Shown one piece after another: positions 15,251 through 45,730 of a stretch of 64,000 nt of DNA (position 1 is its first letter; the number at the start of each line of letters is the position of its first letter). Made by a program: the position numbers and the translations under genes. The stretch spans positions 1 to 64,000 of the forward strand of contig MGRJ01000023.1 of NCBI GenBank assembly GCA_001798135.1, given 5' to 3'. Origin of the DNA: Deltaproteobacteria bacterium RIFCSPHIGHO2_02_FULL_40_28 (GTDB taxonomy: Bacteria > UBA10199 > 2-12-FULL-40-28). Below the pieces are notes generated by a model. The model saw nothing but the letters and a program-made list of their open reading frames with translations. It was not told the origin of the DNA and searched no databases.

Positions 15251-16636
15251 ATGAAAGCAAAAATATTGGTGGTGGATGATGAGGTTGCTTTAACAAAGGC
15301 CTTATCAAAATATTTAACCCAGGAAGGCTATGCGGTAGACATAGCGGGAGACGGGCCAGAGGCCATCGAAAAATTTAAAACAGGACATTTCGATTTGCTT
15401 TTAACTGATTTGCAAATGCCCAATATGGATGGAGTTACTCTTATTAAAGAAATTAAGGCGCTCAATCCATTAGTGGTTTGCATCGTGATGACTGGTTTTG
15501 CATCTATCCAATCAGCGGTAGAGGCTACCAAGGCTGGAGCTTTTCACTATGTAACAAAACCGTTCGAGCTGGATGATATTGGTCTGTTGATTAAAAAGGC
15601 CCTGGAACATACCCAGCTTAAAGGTGAAAATCAAATTTTGCAGAAGCAGATAAAAACTCGCTATGGTTTTGAAAATATTATTGGAACCAGTGATGAGTTA
15701 AATGGTGTTTTAAAATTAGTGCAAAAAGTAGCTGATACTGATTCAACCGTTCTTATTCTTGGTGAATCAGGAACAGGTAAAGAGCTGATTGCTAGAGCTA
15801 TTCATTACAATAGTAATCGCGCTGATAAGCCTTTGGTTCCTGTAAATTGTGGAGCCATTCCTGAAAACCTTTTGGAATCTGAACTTTTTGGCCATGTAAA
15901 AGGTTCTTTTACAGGTGCTATCAATTCCAAAATGGGCCGTTTTGAGATGGCTAATGGTGGCACTATTTTCCTCGATGAAATTGGAGATATGAGTTTAAGA
16001 CTCCAAGTTAAAATCTTGCGTGTTTTGCAAGAAAGAAAATTTGAACCCGTTGGTTCAACTAAAACAGTAGAGGTTGATGTACGTATTATTACGGCGACTC
16101 ATCGTAACTTGGAAGATTTGGTAGCCAAGGGAGAATTTCGTGAGGATCTCTATTATCGTTTAAATGTTATTCCCTTAAACATACCTCCTTTACGGGAGAG
16201 AGTATCAGACATTCCCATTCTCGTGGACTATTTCCTCAAAAGTTATTCTACGGCTAATCGGGTAAAAGAACCCATTGTCACTCAAGATATTATGAGTCTT
16301 TTGATGAATTACAAATGGCCTGGTAATATACGCGAATTAGAAAATACCATTGAACGCTTGGTGGTTTTAAGGCCAGCTCAAGTTATTGGGCTTAACGATT
16401 TGCCTGATAAATTTCTCAAGGCAACAGATACTATTTTCAAAAACTCAGCACTTCATATTCCAGATGCCGGCATTTCATTAAAAAATGCCGTAAATGATTT
16501 CGAGAACACCCTTATATTAAAGGCCCTTGAAAAAACTGGTTGGAATAAAAATAAAGCAGCAAGTCTTTTGCGACTTAATCGCACCACCCTAGTTGAAAAA
16601 ATTAAGAAAAAGCAGCTGGAAAAGGATGTGCACTGA
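15251..16636 (+). CDS. NtrC-family sigma-54 response regulator 1
   Basis: A 461-residue activator with an intact receiver: acidic pair DD9-10, phosphoacceptor Asp53 (LTDLQMP) and Lys in HYVTKPF. The AAA+ domain has Walker A GESGTGKE, the sigma-54 contact loop as GSFTGA and Walker B LDEIGD. A Fis-type helix-turn-helix ends the protein (NKNKAASLLRLNRTTLVEKI). Phosphorylation by the neighbouring kinase should drive oligomerisation and sigma-54 promoter opening. It is 12 bases after the kinase gene and is the only one of the three tandem activators with all receiver residues, so it is the obvious cognate partner. AAGGAAA precedes the start. Confidence 0.93.
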   Translation: MKAKILVVDDEVALTKALSKYLTQEGYAVDIAGDGPEAIEKFKTGHFDLLLTDLQMPNMDGVTLIKEIKALNPLVVCIVMTGFASIQSAVEATKAGAFHYVTKPFELDDIGLLIKKALEHTQLKGENQILQKQIKTRYGFENIIGTSDELNGVLKLVQKVADTDSTVLILGESGTGKELIARAIHYNSNRADKPLVPVNCGAIPENLLESELFGHVKGSFTGAINSKMGRFEMANGGTIFLDEIGDMSLRLQVKILRVLQERKFEPVGSTKTVEVDVRIITATHRNLEDLVAKGEFREDLYYRLNVIPLNIPPLRERVSDIPILVDYFLKSYSTANRVKEPIVTQDIMSLLMNYKWPGNIRELENTIERLVVLRPAQVIGLNDLPDKFLKATDTIFKNSALHIPDAGISLKNAVNDFENTLILKALEKTGWNKNKAASLLRLNRTTLVEKIKKKQLEKDVH

Positions 16637-16646
16637 ATAGTTTTCT

Positions 16647-18044
16647 ATGAGTACAATGCATAACCCTTCCATTCTTCTGGTGACCCAGAGTGAGACTGAC
16701 CTTGCCTTTTTAAGTAAGGTTTGTTCCAAAAATGATTGGAGCATAGCAAGTGTGGCTGATGCAACCCTTGCCATGCATCAACTTTCTCATCATGATTTTA
16801 CAGTGGTTATTATCGATTCTGATTTGGGTGACATCAATGGTTTGCAACTGTTGGAATGGATTATTACCCAGGTTGTGCGTCCCGAGGTTGTTTTACTCTC
16901 ACAAGCTTCTTCTACAGAAGTGGTTGTTAAAGCAATTAAACATGGAGCCTTTGATTATCTTGAAAAGCCTCTTGTTTCTGTAAATAAAGTGACTCATCTT
17001 ATTCGTCAAGCCATCGAAAAGTATAAGTTGATCCATCCAAGTTACGAGAATGGTGAAAATTTTCCAGGCTATCAGGGTATTGTGGGTACTAGTCCCAAAA
17101 TGCGCGCTGTTTTCGATTTGATTCGTAGTGTGAGTGCAAGTGATACCAATGTGCTGATTACTGGTGAATCGGGGACAGGAAAAGAATTGGTGGCCAAAGC
17201 CATTCATCAAACAAGTCTGCGTAAAGATAAACCCTTCGTTGTCATTAATTGTGCGGCCATGCCCGAAACACTTTTGGAGTCTGAGCTTTTTGGTTATATA
17301 CGCGGAGCTTTTACAGGAGCGGCTACGGATAAAGAAGGGCTTTTCGAAATTGCTCATGAGGGATGCGTTTTTTTAGATGAAATAGCCGACATTCCACCTT
17401 CGATGCAGGTTAAATTACTTCGTGTGATTCAAGAGGGTGAAGTGCGCCGCATTGGGGATACACTATCAAAAAATATCGATGTGCGTATTATGGCTGCAAC
17501 CAATAAAAATTTAGCTTCCGAAATTAGCAATGGAGGATTTCGAGAAGATTTATTTTATCGCCTTAATGTTATTGCCATCAATTTACCTTCTTTGAAGGAT
17601 AGATCGGATGATATTCCTATTTTAACCCAAAGCCTCCTTCAAAAATACACCAAACAATTAGGCAAACCCGGGGTAAAGATTGCTTTTGATGCGTTAAGTG
17701 CTCTTCAAAATTATTCCTGGCCTGGAAATGTACGTGAATTAGAAAATGTGATCGAGCGAGCCATTGTATTATCTGATGGAGATACGATTACAGCAAAAAA
17801 TTTACCTTCTAAAATTCTTTCTGCCATTTTTTACAATTCGGTGAAACAAGAACCCGATTTAGCCGAACTGAATTATAAAGAAGCCAAGAAAAGGGCGTTG
17901 AATATTTTTAACCGTTCCTATATCATAGGTATTCTTGAGAAAACAGGGTGGAACATCACAGCAGCTTCAGAACAAGCTGGGATGGATCGCAGTAATTTTA
18001 AGAAAATCATAAAAAAATATAGTGTTGAAATGAAGAAAGAGTAA
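16647..18044 (+). CDS. NtrC-family sigma-54 activator 2, degenerate receiver
   Basis: A 465-residue paralog of the preceding gene. The receiver keeps a possible phosphoacceptor (Asp57 in IIDSDLG) and the conserved Lys (YLEKPL). It has lost the acidic pair that binds magnesium (LVTQSETD in place of LVVDDE), so classical phosphorylation is doubtful. The AAA+ part is intact (GESGTGKE, GAFTGA, FLDEIAD) with a C-terminal helix-turn-helix (AASEQAGMDRSNFKKII). It may be controlled by ligand, protein contact or mixed oligomers with activator 1. It lies 10 bases downstream of activator 1 in the same operon. Confidence 0.9.
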   Translation: MSTMHNPSILLVTQSETDLAFLSKVCSKNDWSIASVADATLAMHQLSHHDFTVVIIDSDLGDINGLQLLEWIITQVVRPEVVLLSQASSTEVVVKAIKHGAFDYLEKPLVSVNKVTHLIRQAIEKYKLIHPSYENGENFPGYQGIVGTSPKMRAVFDLIRSVSASDTNVLITGESGTGKELVAKAIHQTSLRKDKPFVVINCAAMPETLLESELFGYIRGAFTGAATDKEGLFEIAHEGCVFLDEIADIPPSMQVKLLRVIQEGEVRRIGDTLSKNIDVRIMAATNKNLASEISNGGFREDLFYRLNVIAINLPSLKDRSDDIPILTQSLLQKYTKQLGKPGVKIAFDALSALQNYSWPGNVRELENVIERAIVLSDGDTITAKNLPSKILSAIFYNSVKQEPDLAELNYKEAKKRALNIFNRSYIIGILEKTGWNITAASEQAGMDRSNFKKIIKKYSVEMKKE

Positions 18045-18065: not shown

Positions 18066-19478
18066 ATGTCTGCCAAGACAAAAAGTCAGCTTTTAATTAT
18101 TGGTTCGTGGCTCACAGCTATTGATCAGCTCAAAACTCAGCTTAAAAAAGATGATTTTGATATTACCGTAGTTACTTTAGAAGAAGCTATTTCTTCTATG
18201 CGCGAAGCTGACTATGATTGTGTACTCATTCTTGTTGATGGAGAAGATGTTACTCCAGAAATTTCTTTAAGCGGAGAATTAAGAAAAACTTACGATAATT
18301 TACCCATTTTTGTGATTGGTAAAAAAAATCATTGGGAACCAGCAGTTTCTTTCATGAAGCAAGGTGTTACTGACTATTTGCCTTATTCTGAATCTAAGGA
18401 TTGTCTCAAAAAAAATCTTTCTAACAAAATTCGTGTTTATCACATGACTAAACGTGTTTTTCAGGGAGATGGAGTGTCTCGTTTCATTTCGCCTTTTGAA
18501 GGCATGGTGGGAAATTCAGAACGAATGCAGGAAAATTTTCGGATGATTCAATCGGTGTCAAAATCTAATGCTACGGTTTTAATTACTGGCGAATCAGGAA
18601 CTGGAAAAGAATTAGTGGCCAAAGCTGTGCATCATATCAGTAATCGTTCGCAATATCGTTTTGTTGATCTTAATTGTGGTGCCATTCCTAGAGATCTTTT
18701 AGAAAATGAACTTTTTGGCCATGAAAAAGGTTCTTTTACAGGTGCCCATAAAAGATATTTAGGAAGTTTTGAAGCAGCTCATCGGGGAACTCTTTTTTTG
18801 GATGAAATTAGCGAGATGGATCCCTTGTTACAGGTAAAATTACTGCGTGTACTTCAAGAACGAAGTTTTATGAGAATTGGTGGAACAGAAAAAATTGATG
18901 TGGATGTGCGCATTATTGCTGCCACCAATAAAAATTTACACGATTCCATTGAAAAAGGATTATTTCGGGAAGATCTTTTTTATCGTCTCAATGTTGTTAA
19001 TATTAATATTCCTGCTTTACGCGAAAGACGAGAGGATATTCTTTTAATTGCTACTCATTTTTTAGAATTTCATTCTGCTAAAAATAATCGCATTTTTATC
19101 GATTTTGCAACCGATGCCATGGAGACTTTAATTAATTATGATTGGCCAGGAAATGTACGCGAATTAGAAAATACTATCGAACGTATTGTGGTGCTTCATG
19201 ACGATTCACAAGTGAAACTTAAATATCTGCCTAAACATATTCAAAAGGTTAATCGTTCTATTGCCCTTTCAGAAGTGGCTAAACCAGCTACAACCGATGA
19301 AACCAATATTATTCCTTTAGATGATTTAGAAAAGCAAGCGATTGAGTTAGCCTTACTTAAGTTTCAAGGTAATATTTCAGTTGTAGCCAAAAAATTAAAA
19401 ATTGGTCAAGCCACTCTTTATCGTAAGGTAAAAAAATATGGTTTGAATCAGCTTCATTTACAAGGAAAGCCTTCATGA
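18066..19478 (+). CDS. NtrC-family sigma-54 activator 3, pseudo-receiver
   Basis: A 470-residue third tandem activator. Its N-terminal 120 residues keep the receiver outline but lack the acidic pair (LLIIGSWLTA), a clear phosphoacceptor and the Lys (DYLPYSES), so it looks like a pseudo-receiver. The AAA+ module has GESGTGKE, GSFTGA and FLDEISEM, and the C-terminus has a Fis-like helix-turn-helix (ISVVAKKLKIGQATLYRKV). It could be constitutively active, or gated by the STAS/RsbW-like proteins encoded immediately downstream with ATGA overlaps. AAGGGAA lies upstream of ATG. Confidence 0.9.
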   Translation: MSAKTKSQLLIIGSWLTAIDQLKTQLKKDDFDITVVTLEEAISSMREADYDCVLILVDGEDVTPEISLSGELRKTYDNLPIFVIGKKNHWEPAVSFMKQGVTDYLPYSESKDCLKKNLSNKIRVYHMTKRVFQGDGVSRFISPFEGMVGNSERMQENFRMIQSVSKSNATVLITGESGTGKELVAKAVHHISNRSQYRFVDLNCGAIPRDLLENELFGHEKGSFTGAHKRYLGSFEAAHRGTLFLDEISEMDPLLQVKLLRVLQERSFMRIGGTEKIDVDVRIIAATNKNLHDSIEKGLFREDLFYRLNVVNINIPALRERREDILLIATHFLEFHSAKNNRIFIDFATDAMETLINYDWPGNVRELENTIERIVVLHDDSQVKLKYLPKHIQKVNRSIALSEVAKPATTDETNIIPLDDLEKQAIELALLKFQGNISVVAKKLKIGQATLYRKVKKYGLNQLHLQGKPS

Positions 19479-33100: not shown

Positions 33101-33120
33101 AAAAAATAGTAATAATTTCA
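33101..33120 (+). promoter_or_regulatory. Shared upstream element of small RNA 1
   Basis: AAAAAATAGTAATAATTTCA lies about 60-79 bases before the predicted start. Nearly the same sequence lies at the same distance before small RNA 2, so it is a candidate activator site. Confidence 0.45.
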
Positions 33121-33152
33121 ATATCTTATAAAAATAACAATAGAGGGCTTAT

Positions 33153-33169
33153 TTGGCACAAGGGTTGCT
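33153..33169 (+). promoter_or_regulatory. Sigma-54 promoter of small RNA 1
   Basis: TTGGCACAAGGGTTGCT matches the consensus at all core positions, with GG and GC 10 bases apart. Confidence 0.8.
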
Positions 33170-33179
33170 TTATCTCCTA

Positions 33180-33280
33180 TTGAGACGATTGCAGATGAAA
33201 ATCTACAGTTGACCTCTTGACCCTCCATTCCCTCCGAGCCGCCTTTGGTTGATCAGGGTTAGCCAGGGGCGGCTTTTCCC
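33180..33280 (+). ncRNA. Small RNA 1, CCUCC-rich, sigma-54 dependent
   Basis: A transcript of about 100 nt is predicted between the sigma-54 promoter and a strong terminator. A 5' stem around 33190-33207 (TGCAGAT GAAA ATCTACA, one mismatch) is followed by a C-rich linker with ACCTC, ACCCTCC and CCCTCC. A 14-base-pair hairpin (33237-33274) then ends in TTTT. No coding frame of note is present. The CCUCC motifs complement the GGAGG of ribosome sites, so it may act as an anti-Shine-Dalgarno regulator. It runs convergently into the 3' side of mqnD. A related RNA gene lies at 35.8 kb. Confidence 0.6.
33237..33277 (+). terminator. Terminator of small RNA 1
   Basis: AGCCGCCTTTGGTT pairs over 14 positions (with G-U pairs) with AGCCAGGGGCGGCT around a 10-base loop, followed by TTTT. 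The stem could also terminate the opposing mqnD transcript. Confidence 0.75.
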
Positions 33281-33305
33281 CCCGAAAAGCTTTCAAAAAA
33301 TCGGT

Positions 33306-34133
33306 TCAATCTACAAATTCAATTTTTGGGAGATGTGGAATGAGTTTTTTCTGATAGGCGCGTTCTAAAAAAAGATGAACGGCTTTCTTGCCATCCGCGC
33401 CATAATCCAGCGTTCGTTGATTGACATACATACCTACAAAACGATCGGCTTGTTTAGGATCCAAATCCCTTGCATACTGCATGGCATGATTTAAGGCGTC
33501 TTCTCTGTGATCTAATCCATAAGCAATACTGGCCTTTTGCAGCCGAGCTAATTTTTTCATGAGATCCATCCCCAAATCTTTGCGAACGGCATTTCCACCT
33601 AGGGGAAGGGGAAGCCCCGTTTCATCTTTCCACCACTGGCCTAAATCCACAATCAACTTAAAGCCCATGTCTTGATACTGCAATTGCCCCTCGTGAATAA
33701 TAAGTCCCGCATCCACGATGCCCGCCTCTACAACTTCTAAAATTTGATCAAAAGGAACCACCACAGGCTCAAATTCGGGCTGGGCCATCTGCAGCGCTAA
33801 ATAAGCCGAAGTAAGCCTTCCTGGAATGGCCACCTTTTTATTTTTAAATTCAGAAAGCGGAAAAGCTTGTTTGGCAACAACCATGGGGCCATAACCCTCT
33901 CCCATGCTGGCCCCACTGCCTAGAAGGGTATAACGGTCGGCTAAATAGGCATAGGCATGAATAGATACAGCTGTAATTTCGTAGGTTCCACTGTGAGCAG
34001 CTTGATTCAAAGTTTCGATGTCACGTAAGGTATGCTCAAACTTGAGGCCCTCAGGATCAATTTTTTTAGCAGCCAACGCATAAAACATAAAGGCATCATC
34101 GGAATCGGGGCTGTGTGCAATACGAATTAACAT
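33306..34133 (-). CDS. mqnD: 1,4-dihydroxy-6-naphthoate synthase
   Basis: A 275-residue enzyme of the futalosine pathway to menaquinone. It converts cyclic dehypoxanthinyl futalosine to 1,4-dihydroxy-6-naphthoate. Diagnostic MqnD features are HSPDSDDAFMFYAL, the DIETLNQAA motif, GRLTSAYLALQ, the catalytic-His region GLIIHEGQLQYQ and DLGQWWKDETGLPLPLGG. Length fits the family. No other mqn gene is in the window. It stands alone, divergent from the DUF1016 cassette, and its 3' end faces small RNA 1. Menaquinone matches the presence of complex I in the same window. Confidence 0.92.
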   Translation of the reverse strand: MLIRIAHSPDSDDAFMFYALAAKKIDPEGLKFEHTLRDIETLNQAAHSGTYEITAVSIHAYAYLADRYTLLGSGASMGEGYGPMVVAKQAFPLSEFKNKKVAIPGRLTSAYLALQMAQPEFEPVVVPFDQILEVVEAGIVDAGLIIHEGQLQYQDMGFKLIVDLGQWWKDETGLPLPLGGNAVRKDLGMDLMKKLARLQKASIAYGLDHREDALNHAMQYARDLDPKQADRFVGMYVNQRTLDYGADGKKAVHLFLERAYQKKLIPHLPKIEFVD

Positions 34134-34175
34134 GCAGGGGCATTATCACTCTCATTATCATGGGGCAAATCTATT

Positions 34176-35508
34176 TTTTTTCAAAAAATAAGAAACTTTA
34201 GGGGTGTCTTTTGACGAGAATGTCTTGATGAATTTTTGATCTGGAGGTGAAAATGCAGTTATCCAAAACAAACGACTACACTAAATTTCTGGCTAATATC
34301 AAATCGCGCATTTGCTTAGCCAAAATTTCAGCGGCACGTCAGGTTAATAATGGGTTAATCAGCCTTTATTGGTCTATTGGACACGATATTGTTGAAAAAC
34401 AAAAGACACTTGGTTGGGGAAAATCAGTTGTCGAGAAATTATCCAAGGATTTACAAAAGGCATTTCCTAATTCTGAAGGATATTCAGCAGATAATTTATG
34501 GCGTATGCGGCAATTTTATACCGAATATTCTAATCCTACAATTCTGGAACAACTTGTTCCAGAATTGACCGGCACAAAGACCAAAAAGGTTGAATTGCCA
34601 ATTTTGGAACGGCTTGTTCCAGAATGGCGTAACAAAATTAAATCTTTGAATAATAAGAAAAAGCCGCTCCATTGGGAAAAAATGATTGGACCAATTCTGG
34701 CAAATATTCCGTGGGGGCACCATGTTCTTATCCTTAAGAAAATTAAGTCATTTCCAGAAAAACTTTATTATCTAAAAGCCACAACGGCATTGGGTTGGAG
34801 TCGTGATGTTCTTTTAAATCAAATCAAGGCTGACTCTTATTGCCATTTTATAAGAGACAGCAAAGCAAGTAATTTTAAATTAGCTTTGCCGGCTTATCTG
34901 GCGGAACAGGCGGAAGAAACTCTCAAGAGTTCCTACAATCTAGAATTTTTGGGGATCAAGGAAGCTATCCATGAACGTCATTTGGAAAATCGGCTTATTG
35001 AAAAGCTCAAAAATTTCATTCTCGAACTTGGCTACGGATTTTGTTTTATTGGCAATCAGTACCGGTTGACGCTTGGTGAGAACGAATATTTTATCGATCT
35101 TCTTTTTTATCATCGCTTTCTCAAATCATTGGTTGCTGTTGAATTGAAAACCGGTAAATTTAAGCCGGAATATGCCGGAAAAATGGATTTTTATCTTAAC
35201 CTTCTTAACGAATCTGAAAAAGCTAATGACGACAGACCATCCATTGGCATCATCCTTTGTGCTGAAAGAGATAAATTGGAAGTTGAGTTTTCGCTGAGAA
35301 CTAAAATCAACCCTATCGGTGTGGCGGAATACAAACTTTATCAAAGTCTTCCTGATAATTTGAAAGGCAAATTACCGACTTCAAAACAGCTTATCGAAGG
35401 ATTAAAATAATTGTACCAGGAAACTTCAAACTTGAAGTGCCAATTTGACACCTCAAATGAAGAAATAAGAAATACGGTTCCACTTTTTTCAAAAAATAAG
35501 AAACTTTA
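34176..35508. repeat. 25-base direct repeats flanking the DUF1016 gene
   Basis: Perfect 25-base copies at 34176-34200 and 35484-35508 (core CAAAAAATAAGAAACTTTA) enclose the DUF1016 gene and nothing else of note. This suggests the gene entered as a unit or can be lost by recombination between the copies. Confidence 0.65.
34253..35410 (+). CDS. DUF1016 (YhcG-like) PD-(D/E)xK nuclease
   Basis: A 385-residue protein of the YhcG family. The N-terminal DUF1016 domain (residues 5-170: IKSRICLAKISAARQVNNGLISLYWSIG, SVVEKLSKDLQKAFPN, GWSRDVLLNQI) is followed by a nuclease domain (210-340) with GNQYRLTLGENEYFIDLLFYHR and LVAVELKTGKFKPEYAG, giving the Asp and ExK of the catalytic site. A 60-base tandem duplication (34541-34627) repeats ILEQLVPE/ILERLVPE. 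ATG 34253 has GGAGG six bases upstream. These genes often travel with restriction or defence loci. Here it lies between 25-base direct repeats. Confidence 0.88.
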   Translation: MQLSKTNDYTKFLANIKSRICLAKISAARQVNNGLISLYWSIGHDIVEKQKTLGWGKSVVEKLSKDLQKAFPNSEGYSADNLWRMRQFYTEYSNPTILEQLVPELTGTKTKKVELPILERLVPEWRNKIKSLNNKKKPLHWEKMIGPILANIPWGHHVLILKKIKSFPEKLYYLKATTALGWSRDVLLNQIKADSYCHFIRDSKASNFKLALPAYLAEQAEETLKSSYNLEFLGIKEAIHERHLENRLIEKLKNFILELGYGFCFIGNQYRLTLGENEYFIDLLFYHRFLKSLVAVELKTGKFKPEYAGKMDFYLNLLNESEKANDDRPSIGIILCAERDKLEVEFSLRTKINPIGVAEYKLYQSLPDNLKGKLPTSKQLIEGLK

Positions 35509-35700
35509 TAGTCTTGTAACCATGAAGCAATTAGTCTCATTATTCGCTTCACAATATGAAGCGATTAGAGAGGTGGTTGCAGACTGTGACTACCTCCAAA
35601 AGTTTATAAAGTACCAGGTTTTGTGGTCTTTGCACCTCCACCTGAGGAGTGGTTTTGTGGAGCACTCCCCCCAAATAGAAAACTAGGCAAAAATTGCCTA
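35411..35700 (+). other. Degenerate stretch after the DUF1016 gene
   Basis: No convincing gene. An open frame at 35411-35686 begins SNLKCQFDTSN, faintly like an ORF6N-domain fragment, but has no ribosome site and crosses the direct repeat. The part near 35570-35680 has many inverted repeats. ACTAGGCAA/TTGCCTAGT (35682-35702) is a perfect 9-base hairpin that may end transcription from the cassette. Confidence 0.35.
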
Positions 35701-35711
35701 GTAAAAACTTT

Positions 35712-35730
35712 AAAAAATATAATAATTTCA
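35712..35730 (+). promoter_or_regulatory. Shared upstream element of small RNA 2
   Basis: AAAAAATATAATAATTTCA matches the element upstream of small RNA 1 (19 of 20 positions with one gap) and lies at a similar distance, about 58-76 bases, from the predicted start. Confidence 0.45.
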
Positions 35731-35760
35731 TAGAGTTAAAATGTAAAACCAAAGTGTGTT

Positions 35761-35777
35761 TTGGCACGTTCTCTGCA
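35761..35777 (+). promoter_or_regulatory. Sigma-54 promoter of small RNA 2
   Basis: TTGGCACGTTCTCTGCA has the full -24 box and correct 10-base GG-GC spacing. The -12 box is CTGCA in place of TTGCA. Confidence 0.75.
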
Positions 35778-35787
35778 ATAGATAGAA

Positions 35788-35880
35788 GCAGGTTTGTTGA
35801 TCTTTAAAGTTTTTAAAGTGACCTCCATGTACCCTCCGAGCCGCCTGTGGACTGAGTTTGGGACGCAGGCGGCTTGACCC
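35788..35880 (+). ncRNA. Small RNA 2, CCUCC-rich, sigma-54 dependent
   Basis: A transcript of about 90 nt with the same order of parts as small RNA 1. It has a 5' hairpin (CTTTAAA GTT TTTAAAG, 35802-35818), a linker with ACCTCC and ACCCTCC, and a terminator hairpin beginning GAGCCGCCT. Linker and terminator sequence are conserved between the two RNAs (GACCTC, ACCCTCCGAGCCGCC, GGCGGCTT), while the 5' hairpins differ in sequence but not position. No gene is encoded. It is likely a paralog of small RNA 1 under the same activator. Confidence 0.6.
35839..35875 (+). terminator. Terminator-like hairpin of small RNA 2
   Basis: AGCCGCCTGTG pairs over 11 bases with CGCAGGCGGCT around a 15-base loop. 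The T tract is short, so termination may be partial. Confidence 0.55.
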
Positions 35881-35914
35881 CTCTAATAAAAATTTTCTAA
35901 TAAATTCAAATCTT

Positions 35915-36071
35915 AAACATCAGAAAGAAAAAATATCTGTAAGCAAAAGCGTCTCGCAGCCAATTTGTCCTTCCGAAAAATGAAAACAAATTGGCGAGAG
36001 CGAGTGGTTTCAAACCTCGATGGTTTGAAAACCACGTCTTTTGTGGCAGATATTTTTTCTTTCTGATGTTT
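35915..36071. mobile_element. MITE-like element with 25-base terminal inverted repeats
   Basis: Perfect 25-base inverted ends at 35915-35939 and 36047-36071 (AAACATCAGAAAG ... CTTTCTGATGTTT). Inside are nested hairpins (CCAATTTGT/ACAAATTGG and GGTTTCAAACC/GGTTTGAAAACC). There is no coding capacity. It lies between small RNA 2 and the CBS protein gene. Confidence 0.65.
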
Positions 36072-36126: not shown

Positions 36127-37218
36127 ATGCCTTTTGTGGAAATACATTCTATTTCGCCAGGTTTTCTTATTTTGGCCCTGGTGTTTGTGTTGCTCAATGC
36201 TTTTTTCGTGGCGGCCGAATTTGCCTTGGTAAAAACTCGCTCAACTCATCTGGAAGTTTTAGCCAATCAAGGCCATCCTATGGCTACACTTGCCAAGCAC
36301 ATGGTTTCCAACTTAGATTCCTACCTTTCGGCAACTCAACTTGGGATTACGCTAGCCAGCCTGGGCTTGGGCTGGATTGGTGAACCTGCTTTTGCCAAAC
36401 TTTTGGAGTTTCCCATCCACTATTTACAAATTAATTTGTCCGATGCAGCCCTTCATTCGGTTTCTTTAAGTCTGGCTTTTTTAGTCATTTCTGCACTTCA
36501 TATTATTTTAGGTGAATTAGTTCCAAAAACATTAGCCATTCAATATGCCGAAAAAATTTGTTTTATCGTGGCCATTCCTCTTCAAATTTTTTACATTTTA
36601 TTTTTTCCATTTCTTTGGATTTTAAATGAATCTTCTTTTTTGTTTCTTAAAATGTTTGGATTCAAACGATATCGCGCAAGCCGTGCTCATTCGGAAGAAG
36701 AAATTAAACTCATTTTGGAAGATTCTGTGGAACAAGGAAAAATGGCTCCACAAAAACAACATCTTTTAGATAACGCTCTCGATTTTTCTCATAGAAAAGT
36801 TGCCGATATTATGGTGCCTGTTGCAGAGATAGCCTGTTTTTACTTGGATAAAACAGTGGAAGAAAATCTGGAATACGCCAAAGAGTCTGGCCATACGCGT
36901 TTCCCTCTTAAAGAATCTCAAAAAGGGAGATTTATTGGTTTTGTGCATATTAAGGATGTTATTTGGAGCTTAGAAAACAAAGAGATGATTAATTTGTTTG
37001 ATTTAAAAAGATCTCTTTTATTTCTCAACGAAAACTTAACCATCGATCGTGTATTAAAAGAATTTCAACGAGGACATGTACACATGGCAGCTGTTTCTCA
37101 TTCCACCTCTCTCGAAAATAAAATCATTGGTTTTTTAACATTAGAGGATGTGATTGAAGAACTAGTTGGAGAAATTAATGATGAATTTGATCTGCAAAAT
37201 CCTAACCCGCAAGACTAA
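36127..37218 (+). CDS. DUF21-CBS membrane protein lacking CorC domain
   Basis: A 363-residue protein of the HlyC/CorC (CNNM-like) family. The N-terminal DUF21 region has about four membrane segments (residues 10-30, 65-90, 105-125, 135-165), including FFVAAEFALVKTR and LGELVPKTLAIQYAE. A CBS pair follows (about 205-355: MVPVAEIACFYLDK, TRFPLKES, GFLTLEDVIEELVGEINDEF). Relatives act in magnesium or cobalt transport. The usual C-terminal transporter-associated domain is missing; the chain stops right after the second CBS. Its 3' end overlaps that of the convergent hpnE by 17 bases. Confidence 0.88.
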   Translation: MPFVEIHSISPGFLILALVFVLLNAFFVAAEFALVKTRSTHLEVLANQGHPMATLAKHMVSNLDSYLSATQLGITLASLGLGWIGEPAFAKLLEFPIHYLQINLSDAALHSVSLSLAFLVISALHIILGELVPKTLAIQYAEKICFIVAIPLQIFYILFFPFLWILNESSFLFLKMFGFKRYRASRAHSEEEIKLILEDSVEQGKMAPQKQHLLDNALDFSHRKVADIMVPVAEIACFYLDKTVEENLEYAKESGHTRFPLKESQKGRFIGFVHIKDVIWSLENKEMINLFDLKRSLLFLNENLTIDRVLKEFQRGHVHMAAVSHSTSLENKIIGFLTLEDVIEELVGEINDEFDLQNPNPQD

Positions 37219-40724: not shown

Positions 40725-40997
40725 TTACTTCACCAAGTTTTTAAGGGCCTGGCCTGCCTTGAATTTAGGGGCACGGGTTGCCTTAATCTTGATTTCAGCA
40801 CCGGTTTGCGGATTGCGTCCGACTCGGGCTTTTCTTTTTGCTACTGAAAAGGTTCCAAATCCTGTGAGGGTAATTTTATCACCCTTTTTCAGGCATTTAG
40901 CAACGCCTTCGGTAACAGCATTAAGAGCCTGTTCGGCTAATGCTTTGGAACATTCACATTGGTTAGAAACGAAATCAATTAAATCTGCTTTTGTCAT
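40725..40997 (-). CDS. DNA-binding protein HU
   Basis: A 90-residue HU/IHF-family protein. The N-terminal helices MTKADLIDFVSNQC and ALAEQALNAVTEGVAKCL are followed by GDKITLTGFGTFSVAKRKARVGRNPQTGAEIKI, the signature with the DNA-bending beta arm containing the Arg-Asn-Pro tip. It compacts and bends DNA as a dimer. Strong GGAGGT precedes ATG 40997. A near-consensus promoter lies upstream and an intrinsic terminator downstream, so it is monocistronic and probably highly expressed. Confidence 0.95.
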   Translation of the reverse strand: MTKADLIDFVSNQCECSKALAEQALNAVTEGVAKCLKKGDKITLTGFGTFSVAKRKARVGRNPQTGAEIKIKATRAPKFKAGQALKNLVK

Positions 40998-44110: not shown

Positions 44111-45730
44111 ATGGCCGAACTACACCTTTCCAAATCAGGTTTGCCAGGTCTTGCTATTCAAATTGGTAGAAAACCTTTTTTAATTGGCAGAGATGTTGGT
44201 TGTGATTTATGCCTGCCCGAGAATATTATTTCCAGACAACATGCTTGTATTGAATGGGGAGAGCAAGGGCATCAACTTAAAAATCTCAGTAAGCATGGTA
44301 CTTTAGTTGATTCTTTGCCTATTGATAAAATAGTTTTAACCGATGGGGTTGATTTTCAAATTGGTCCTTGGCGTTTTGTTTTTAAAGAAAGCAGCCTTTT
44401 AGATGAAAAAAAACGTCGTGATATGAACACTGTTATTACAGAACTTAAAAAAGAATCTCCTACCAGGCTTATTCGCTTAAATCCAGACACACATCATTTT
44501 GAAATACAAAATCCTGTTTTAAAAATTAAAAACGCCAGGGAAGAAAAAAATATTTCTTTAACATCCACAAAAATGATTGTGGGATCTCATGCTAACTCGG
44601 ATATTATGATTGAAGATGACTATGTTTCAGGGTCGCATTTAGAGATTAGTTTTGAATTAGAAGGAATACGGCTTAAAGATTTAAATTCAACCAATGGCAC
44701 TTTTGTGGATGGTCAAAGAATAACAGAAGCTCTTTTTACACATCGGTGTGAAATTTTAATTGGTAAAACAAATTTGAAGTTAGATTGGGTATCTAAAGAA
44801 CAAAATTTAAAACCTTATGAGGGAGATTTTTTTTGCGGGATGGTGGGAAAATCTGCTGCCATGCGGAATCTTTTTTCCAAAATATTAAAGGTAGCTAGAA
44901 GTGGGCTTTCTATTTTGATTGAAGCAGAATCTGGTTCAGGGAAAGAGTTGGTTGCCAAGTGTTTGCATGATTTATCCGAGTTAAAAGGTCCCTTGGTAGT
45001 CGTAAATTGTGGGGCTATTTCACCCAATCTTATTGAAAGTGAATTATTTGGACATGAAAAAGGGGCTTTTACGGGAGCTTTTCAAAGGCATCTGGGGGCT
45101 TTTGAGCAAGCTCATGGGGGCACTTTATTTTTGGATGAAATTGGAGAACTACCGATTGAACTCCAACCCAAATTATTGAGGGTATTGGAAAATCAAATGG
45201 TAAGAAGGGTGGGAGGAGCAAATGAAGTGTCTGTAAAGGTTCGTGTGGTGGCAGCAACTAATCGTAATTTAACTGAGTTAGTTAAAAAGGGATTATTTCG
45301 TGAAGATTTGTATTATCGTCTTTATGTTGTGCCTCTTCAAATTCCTCCTTTAAAAGAGAGGACAGAAGATATTCCTTTGTTAGCTCGTTATTTTATTGAA
45401 CAAGCAGGCTCTCCTCGTCTTTTAAATGAGGCATCCATTCGTAAATTAGTTACTCATTCTTGGCCTGGCAATGTAAGAGAACTTAAAAATGCTATTTTAC
45501 GAAGTCTTGTTTTGTCGGAAGCCAATCCTCTAGGGGTGACCGATATTGATCTTTCTTCTATTCCTTTTTACAAGGGAGAGGATGAAATTAATTTAGAAGA
45601 TGTTGAGAAATCCAAAATTGAAGAAGCCATTAACCGATGTGGAGGAAACAAAACCAAAGCAGCAGAAATGTTAGGCATTGCTAAATCTACTTTGTTTAAA
45701 AAATTAAAGGATTATGCAATTGAACTTTGA
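44111..45730 (+). CDS. Sigma-54 activator with two FHA domains
   Basis: A 539-residue activator without a receiver. Two N-terminal FHA domains (about residues 18-95 with IGRDVGCDL and ISRQHACIEW; about 150-220 with VGSHANSDI and NSTNGTFVDGQRI) bind phosphothreonine peptides. The AAA+ module has an altered Walker A (AESGSGKE), the sigma-54 loop GAFTGA and Walker B LFLDEIGEL. A Fis-type helix-turn-helix ends it (NKTKAAEMLGIAKSTLFKKL). Such proteins couple Ser/Thr kinase signalling to sigma-54 transcription, as in myxobacteria. No Ser/Thr kinase gene is in the window. It starts immediately after the DUF192 stop. Its 3' end overlaps the cold-shock gene by 19 bases. Confidence 0.92.
   Translation: MAELHLSKSGLPGLAIQIGRKPFLIGRDVGCDLCLPENIISRQHACIEWGEQGHQLKNLSKHGTLVDSLPIDKIVLTDGVDFQIGPWRFVFKESSLLDEKKRRDMNTVITELKKESPTRLIRLNPDTHHFEIQNPVLKIKNAREEKNISLTSTKMIVGSHANSDIMIEDDYVSGSHLEISFELEGIRLKDLNSTNGTFVDGQRITEALFTHRCEILIGKTNLKLDWVSKEQNLKPYEGDFFCGMVGKSAAMRNLFSKILKVARSGLSILIEAESGSGKELVAKCLHDLSELKGPLVVVNCGAISPNLIESELFGHEKGAFTGAFQRHLGAFEQAHGGTLFLDEIGELPIELQPKLLRVLENQMVRRVGGANEVSVKVRVVAATNRNLTELVKKGLFREDLYYRLYVVPLQIPPLKERTEDIPLLARYFIEQAGSPRLLNEASIRKLVTHSWPGNVRELKNAILRSLVLSEANPLGVTDIDLSSIPFYKGEDEINLEDVEKSKIEEAINRCGGNKTKAAEMLGIAKSTLFKKLKDYAIEL

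Follow-up and report, generated by a model that had tools for sequence, protein, structure and literature searches.

Paralogous loci for a putative sigma-54-dependent small RNA with an exposed CCCUCC motif in one bacterial order

The subject of this report is a pair of similar non-coding loci, W1 and W2, in a stretch of 64,000 nucleotides (nt) from Deltaproteobacteria bacterium RIFCSPHIGHO2_02_FULL_40_28 (contig MGRJ01000023.1 of assembly GCA_001798135.1, positions 1-64,000, forward strand), here called the window. Each locus opens with a sigma-54 promoter of the GG-N10-GC type, 3' of which lie about 100 nt of non-coding DNA with a 5' hairpin, a C-rich linker and a GC-rich 3' hairpin (Table 1). 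An initial annotation had described both as small RNA genes of one paralogous family, and the promoters, the hairpins and the ACCTC(C)/ACCCTCC linkers were all located where it had put them. It had also regarded the sites as free of any following gene, and no same-strand open reading frame (ORF) of at least 80 codons starts just 3' of either promoter. For W1, which faces a convergent gene, this description holds in full, but W2 is followed at 36127 by a gene of the CNNM family, and the annotation had missed that one copy per genome precedes such a gene. W1 and W2 are separated by a menaquinone-type gene and a YhcG-type nuclease gene.

The same parts recur in the same order in all six copies of the element, which comprise W1, W2 and one copy in each of four related genomes: GG-N10-GC, 35-61 nt, CCCTCC, a stem of the form GAGCCG...CGGCT, 2-3 nt, and a run of four to seven C. 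No T run directly follows the stem in any of them; the two stems of the window are followed by TTTTCCCCCC and TTGACCCC. The folds of W1 and W2 surpassed all of their 200 dinucleotide shuffles each (z -3.85 and -3.64, 0/200 as good). With the RNA start assumed 12 nt after the promoter GC and the sequence cut at the C run, both CCCUCC and the C run are predicted to be unpaired in the six copies; the one exception is the final C of the W2 motif. The conserved motif of the W1 linker is its last CCCTCC (33230-33235), predicted unpaired at 0.98-1.0. A 5' hairpin is likewise predicted in every copy, and the sequences of these six hairpins are unrelated, as the annotation had noted for the pair.

The covariance-model search of relatives that the annotation had proposed located the element in five genomes of one order. 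A DNA search with W1 matched 11 of 40 relatives, and most of these matches were confined to the upstream element. Those in G002 and G006 covered the linker and hairpin, and a match in G003 led to a copy just downstream. Model R1, an alignment of the linker, 3' hairpin and tail of W1, W2 and the G002, G003 and G006 copies, was searched in 46 genomes of the class (the phylum-level set consists of the same 46), eight of which belong to the order. It matched five genomes, all within this order, and found the G004 copy, which was outside its training set, at 45 bits and E 9e-7, where E-values rest on a short calibration. This copy also has a GG-N10-GC site, 35 nt before its CCCTCC. With model R2, built from all six copies, these copies scored 61-76 bits as its own training sequences, and the next match in the order scored 19.9 bits. 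The three other genomes of the order, G001, G005 and G007 (84% complete), gave no clear copy. A wider search with an exact DNA pattern, which misses copies altered in the patterned bases, returned 56 stretches in genome_contigs and one in viral_contigs. Among these 57, R1 recognized a single clear member, L076 on a G002 contig (SBBF01000020.1; 73.9 bits), which was also the only one with a sigma-54-like site within 110 nt upstream. The other 56 scored at most 26.8 bits, and the E-values of 0.002-0.006 reached by four of them belong to stretches preselected by the pattern itself. Comparison with Rfam 15 at the gathering score gave only a tRNA in the window and nothing at W1 or W2, and with hits up to E 5 there was no match at five loci of the element, the G004 copy not being among them.

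The 3' stem has 13 pairs, of which five are invariant, three vary on one side and five change on both sides. Paired cells make up 98.7% of the 78, compared with 37-51% in slid controls, and the covariation score is 0.513 vs 0.297; none of 500 shuffles reached either the score or the share of paired cells. The paralogous family of structured RNAs that the annotation had proposed behind these sigma-54 promoters is conserved in relatives, with covariation, and the absence of conservation that it had named as a refutation was not observed. The five lower pairs, from A-U to G-C, never vary in the six copies, while the upper stem covaries. Judged from these copies, the invariant lower-stem sequence is more than pairing alone requires, and its position between C-rich strands hints at a partner molecule.

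The genome has one sigma-54 gene, rpoN, and contains 47 matches to TGGCAYNNNNNYTGCW vs one for the pattern read backwards; such a site is here seldom due to chance, and some of the 47 fall within genes (e.g., L113). An ORF of at least 70 codons starting 24-230 nt downstream is present after 40 of the 47 sites and absent after seven, including those of W1 and W2; shorter frames follow some of the seven. Four proteins with a Sigma54_activat domain are encoded in the window, just as the annotation had counted. They are candidate regulators only; nothing ties any of them to the W1 or W2 promoters. In G004, too, a gene related to the FHA-domain activator (49% identity) is situated some 7 kb away from the element.

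The annotation had also drawn attention to a conserved element, AATAATTTCA, upstream of both promoters. It is real, but it is part of an integration host factor (IHF)-type site that is general to the sigma-54 regulon, and it was rejected as a mark of the family. We scanned positions -60 to -11 upstream of the 47 sigma-54 sites for WATCAANNNNTTR, which we take to be the IHF consensus, with 300 shuffles as control. Exact matches occur upstream of seven sites (shuffle mean 0.45, maximum 3) and matches with at most one mismatch upstream of 19 (mean 6.2, maximum 13); the opposite strand gave 4 exact matches (mean 0.18) and 12 with at most one mismatch (mean 4.7, maximum 11). Six of the 19 begin at -25 to -27 and eleven at -33 to -38 from TGGCA, a separation of roughly one turn of the helix. 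The site of W2, with two mismatches, is outside the 19. The upstream element thus supports the sigma-54 promoters and not a special RNA family. The genome encodes four proteins of the HU/IHF family, one of them in the window at 40725-40997, and a protein of this type is the putative binder of the element.

Table 1. Features of the W1 and W2 loci and of related genes in the window
Feature	Position	Strand	Basis
IHF-type site TTTCAATATCTTA upstream of W1, one mismatch to WATCAANNNNTTR	33116..33128	+	genome-wide enrichment, sequence
Sigma-54 promoter of W1, TTGGCACAAGGGTTGCT, GG-N10-GC	33153..33169	+	sequence, genome-wide site count
5' hairpin of W1	33186..33211	+	predicted fold
C-rich linker of W1: ACCTC 33212-33216, ACCCTCC 33220-33226, CCCTCC 33230-33235	33212..33235	+	sequence, fold
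Conserved 3' hairpin of W1 (GAGCCGCC...GGCGGCTT)	33236..33275	+	fold, alignment, covariation, model
Run of six C, unpaired, 3' of W1 hairpin	33278..33283	+	fold, sequence
VitK2_biosynth (menaquinone biosynthesis) gene, convergent to W1	33306..34133	-	neighbourhood comparison
IHF-type site TTTCATAGAGTTA upstream of W2, two mismatches, weak	35726..35738	+	sequence
Sigma-54 promoter of W2, TTGGCACGTTCTCTGCA, GG-N10-GC	35761..35777	+	sequence, genome-wide site count
5' hairpin of W2, AT-rich	35802..35818	+	predicted fold
C-rich linker of W2: ACCTCC 35821-35826, ACCCTCC 35831-35837 (last C predicted paired)	35821..35837	+	sequence, fold
Conserved 3' hairpin of W2 (GAGCCGCC...GGCGGCTT)	35838..35875	+	fold, alignment, covariation, model
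Run of four C, unpaired, 3' of W2 hairpin	35878..35881	+	fold, sequence
CNNM/CBS transporter-family gene	36127..37218	+	orthologues directly downstream of element in 5/5 carrier genomes
Response-regulator sigma-54 activator, candidate regulator only	15251..16636	+	domain
Sigma-54 activator with receiver domain, candidate regulator only	16647..18044	+	domain
Sigma-54 activator, candidate regulator only	18066..19478	+	domain
FHA-domain sigma-54 activator	44111..45730	+	domain, neighbourhood comparison

We consider it somewhat better than an even chance that W1 and W2 are paralogous genes for a free-standing, trans-acting small RNA made by sigma-54 RNA polymerase. Its promoter, unpaired CCCUCC, covarying 3' hairpin and C run are supported by sequence and comparison, and a free-standing RNA is favoured because W1 leads no gene and because the CNNM genes seem to have promoters of their own. 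The polymerase would be aided by an IHF/HU-type bending protein and an enhancer-binding activator. The RNA would measure 94-104 nt for a transcript that extends from a point 12 nt past the promoter GC as far as the C run, with its end near the 3' hairpin. It would act in trans and without Hfq, covering the purine-rich ribosome-binding sites (GGAGG/GGAGGG) of target mRNAs with its unpaired CCCUCC and C run. GGAGGG and G runs, the complements of CCCUCC and of the C run, both occur at start sites in this genome, and Hfq was found in none of nine genomes (eight of the order and one more) by a search whose control was positive in 5/14 known genomes. A more far-reaching scheme, which we regard as speculative and on balance improbable, would have a ribosome-mimicking RNA turned on by sigma-54 together with an IHF-type protein in this Hfq-less order, which has received little study, with a dedicated protein holding CCCUCC and the C run at the two sides of the invariant stem so that start sites are masked widely; one lineage would have doubled the RNA beside its CNNM gene.

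Several points weigh against a free-standing, trans-acting RNA. The RNA of W1 and W2 is a prediction from sequence, only six copies were found among the class genomes examined, and no T run directly follows the 3' hairpin, so that the 3' end is a presumed one. Two of the covariation measures are weak, pairs changed on both sides being matched by 20/500 shuffles and further pair types by 60/500, so that six sequences should not be over-read. Pairing with targets was assessed by comparing linker duplex energies at 36 sigma-54 gene starts with those at 29 other ATG starts, using 50 shuffled linkers as control. Both linkers bind the sigma-54 gene starts more strongly (Mann-Whitney 0.005 for W1 and 0.0003 for W2). 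However, the W1 values (-12.6 and -9.4 kcal/mol) are accompanied by -13.2 and -9.8 for shuffled linkers, without specificity, and the W2 values (-11.4 and -7.7) by -10.8 and -8.0, the difference being equal for shuffled sequences. Since shuffled linkers show the same difference, its source is the G-richness of the starts rather than a fitted seed, and target prediction by linker pairing was given up for lack of gain over them. GGAGGG before ATG occurs at 138 sites vs 68 in a reversed control, which is too common for a target list; CCCUCC alone names no target. The annotation had expected CCUCC to pair with ribosome sites: the unpaired CCCUCC predicted in all six copies agrees with this, but given the test without specificity and the abundance of GGAGGG, anti-Shine-Dalgarno action by the W1/W2 RNA is a hypothesis, plausible by its anatomy only. 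As a separate observation, GGAGGGCTTCCGATG recurs at no fewer than eight GGAGGG-before-ATG places of the same genome and looks like part of a dispersed repeat.

The remaining counterpoints come from the gene neighbourhood. In all five carrier genomes (G002, G003, G004, G006 and, with W2, the window) a CNNM gene starts about 70 to 245 nt downstream of one copy and in the same orientation. Within the order, a close CNNM orthologue (53-59% identity to the window gene, besides itself) occurs in precisely the genomes that carry the element; G001 has one at 39% identity, and G005 and G007 have none at E 1e-30. This fits a cis-acting leader, in which sigma-54 polymerase would make a long mRNA whose leader controls readthrough or translation of the CNNM gene and W1 would be a stray duplicate. 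We judge this the less likely account, even if it deserves to be taken seriously, as the spacing between element and gene is very variable and without evident conservation, with inverted repeats seen by eye in the gaps of W2 and G006. A Shine-Dalgarno-like site precedes the CNNM start in none of the five genomes, and a TATAAT-like hexamer lies 12-17 nt before the ATG in all five (5/6 positions in four, 4/6 in G004), which suggests that the CNNM genes may be transcribed separately, as leaderless-type mRNAs from their own promoters. As a 5-of-6 hexamer also precedes 7/50 gene starts of the window, that of the CNNM gene included, these features are support and not proof. W1, the only one of the six copies not preceding a CNNM gene on the same strand, has every part of the element, promoter as well as structure, and leads no gene on its strand. 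Outside the order, five genomes (G010, G017, G021, G026 and G043) have CNNM orthologues of 51-52% identity and no R1 match, and therefore the gene does not need the element; among the closer orthologues there, the upstream regions L140, L142 and L143 were viewed. For W2, the roles of free RNA and leader could both hold.

The other explanations call for a different function of the conserved module. The RNA might be a decoy for a protein that binds CCCUCC-GAGCCG...CGGCU-CCCC and not an antisense RNA; the invariance of the lower stem beside a covarying upper stem, with sequence kept beyond the needs of Shine-Dalgarno pairing, would suit such a role, but we know of no protein that binds a module of this kind, and none was searched for, and we rate the idea as distinctly unlikely. 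CsrA binding requires GGA, which the W1 RNA does not hold, and a CsrA sponge, unlikely for W1, was set aside. That the hairpins are mere terminators or boundary elements seems very improbable to us: their stems are GC-rich, and there are four T before the C run in W1 and six T after the C run in G002, but the C run and CCCUCC are conserved and the sigma-54 GC lies 35-61 nt upstream in every copy. Because it is followed by C, the 3' hairpin is a poor intrinsic terminator, so that the name of terminator given to it in the annotation is doubtful, and a terminator scan listed neither hairpin, although its loop limit of 8 may have excluded that of W2. A short peptide under sigma-54 control, suggested by a 16-codon frame in W2 starting at 35827-35829 (by eye), is scarcely credible and was rejected; an ATG is lacking there in W1, no start codon is common to the six aligned copies, and the variable stem positions change in both arms together.

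The neighbourhood also bears on the origin of the pair. In G004 the menaquinone-type orthologue stands directly upstream of the single copy, and in the window this gene lies between W1 and W2, which makes W1 look like a duplicate located beyond that gene. W2 is probably the ancestral copy because it adjoins the CNNM gene as in relatives. The YhcG/DUF1016 PDDEXK nuclease gene at 34247-35410, between the menaquinone-type gene and W2, is not at this place in G004 and was probably inserted. The interval from W2 to the CNNM gene contains a large inverted repeat (AACATCAGAAAG...CTTTCTGATGTT) at 35916-36070, possibly a mobile repeat or else a strong terminator. In G006 (L089) the element follows, on the same strand, genes for an ammonium transporter, P-II and glutamine synthetase (amt-glnB-glnA). 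This setting suggested nitrogen control, which was not adopted because the setting is that of one genome of five; the G002 contig ends too near for a comparison.

Small RNAs controlled by sigma-54 include CrcZ and the Qrr RNAs, and GlmY and GlmZ are homologous to each other. The annotation had considered sigma-54 control of CCUCC-type RNAs to be a possible new module. Sigma-54 control of small RNAs as such is already described for Pxr of Myxococcus xanthus and relatives (PMC5568312) and for GlmY of Escherichia coli, which has a sigma-54 promoter with a dedicated activator (PMC7073468). Pxr resembles W1 and W2 in its predicted sigma-54 promoter, its small structured RNA and its restriction to one lineage (PMC5568312), as well as in its paralogues in myxobacteria, tandem in some species, and in an organism reported without hfq (PMC5568312, PMC5684412). 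The Pxr probe, complementary to the stem-loop SL1, implies a C-rich SL1, a further likeness to the C-rich element. In contrast, Pxr has three stem-loops, SL1-SL3 (PMC5684412), whereas one 5' and one 3' hairpin are predicted for each copy of the element, and it is located between nla19 and an NADH dehydrogenase gene, whereas the element lies by the CNNM gene and, in the window and G004, the menaquinone-type gene. A pattern derived from the Pxr probe gave seven matches, all with one mismatch, vs 26 for a reversed control in five genomes; no Pxr was identified in this way, and Pxr was compared by description.

The alphaproteobacterial CCUCC anti-Shine-Dalgarno RNAs, such as alpha-r14/NfeR1, offer the second parallel (PMC10746234). 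NfeR1 shares with the element an unpaired anti-Shine-Dalgarno motif in a conserved place and stems of variable sequence; it differs in having three hairpins with CCUCCUCCC in each unpaired region, the element having CCCUCC in one linker, two hairpins and a C run, and in a promoter described without a sigma-54 signature. GlmY and GlmZ are, like W1 and W2, a pair of small RNAs, with a sigma-54 promoter at glmY, whereas they act through RapZ and glmS; this likeness is by description only (PMC7073468). UpsM of Rhodobacter sphaeroides, an RNA in the extended leader of a conserved gene cluster (PMC5089854), would be the model for W2 if W2 is both leader and small RNA; the genes differ, and here too the likeness is one of description. 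We found no description of the element in one library of open-access papers, searched without the name of the order. It looks like a new family within two known themes, sigma-54 control and CCUCC-type motifs, which it joins. As a covariation-supported family in genomes where Hfq was found in 0/9, it is a test case for how such RNAs could work without Hfq.

The sigma-54 sites gave some further candidates. L106 (G000:C9:91622, + strand) has a sigma-54 site and an IHF-type site with one mismatch and is ORF-free for about 160 nt; its leader contains CCACCCCAAC, the complement of a GTTGGGGTGG-like motif in the sigma-54 leaders L090, L093, L096 and L115, and it is possibly another sigma-54 small RNA. 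At L022:531 (G026:C48), two hairpins come after a sigma-54 site that has an exact IHF-type site, and T-rich DNA adjoins the second hairpin on its 3' side (by eye); this locus is another candidate small RNA within the same taxonomic class. After the sigma-54 site of L097 (G000:C6:16351, + strand) lies a frame of about 26 codons that by eye resembles a signal-type peptide. Among L090-L132, about 10 of the 40 ORF starts after sigma-54 sites appear lipoprotein-like by eye, with a cysteine after a hydrophobic start, which suggests a sigma-54 regulon for the envelope or secretion.

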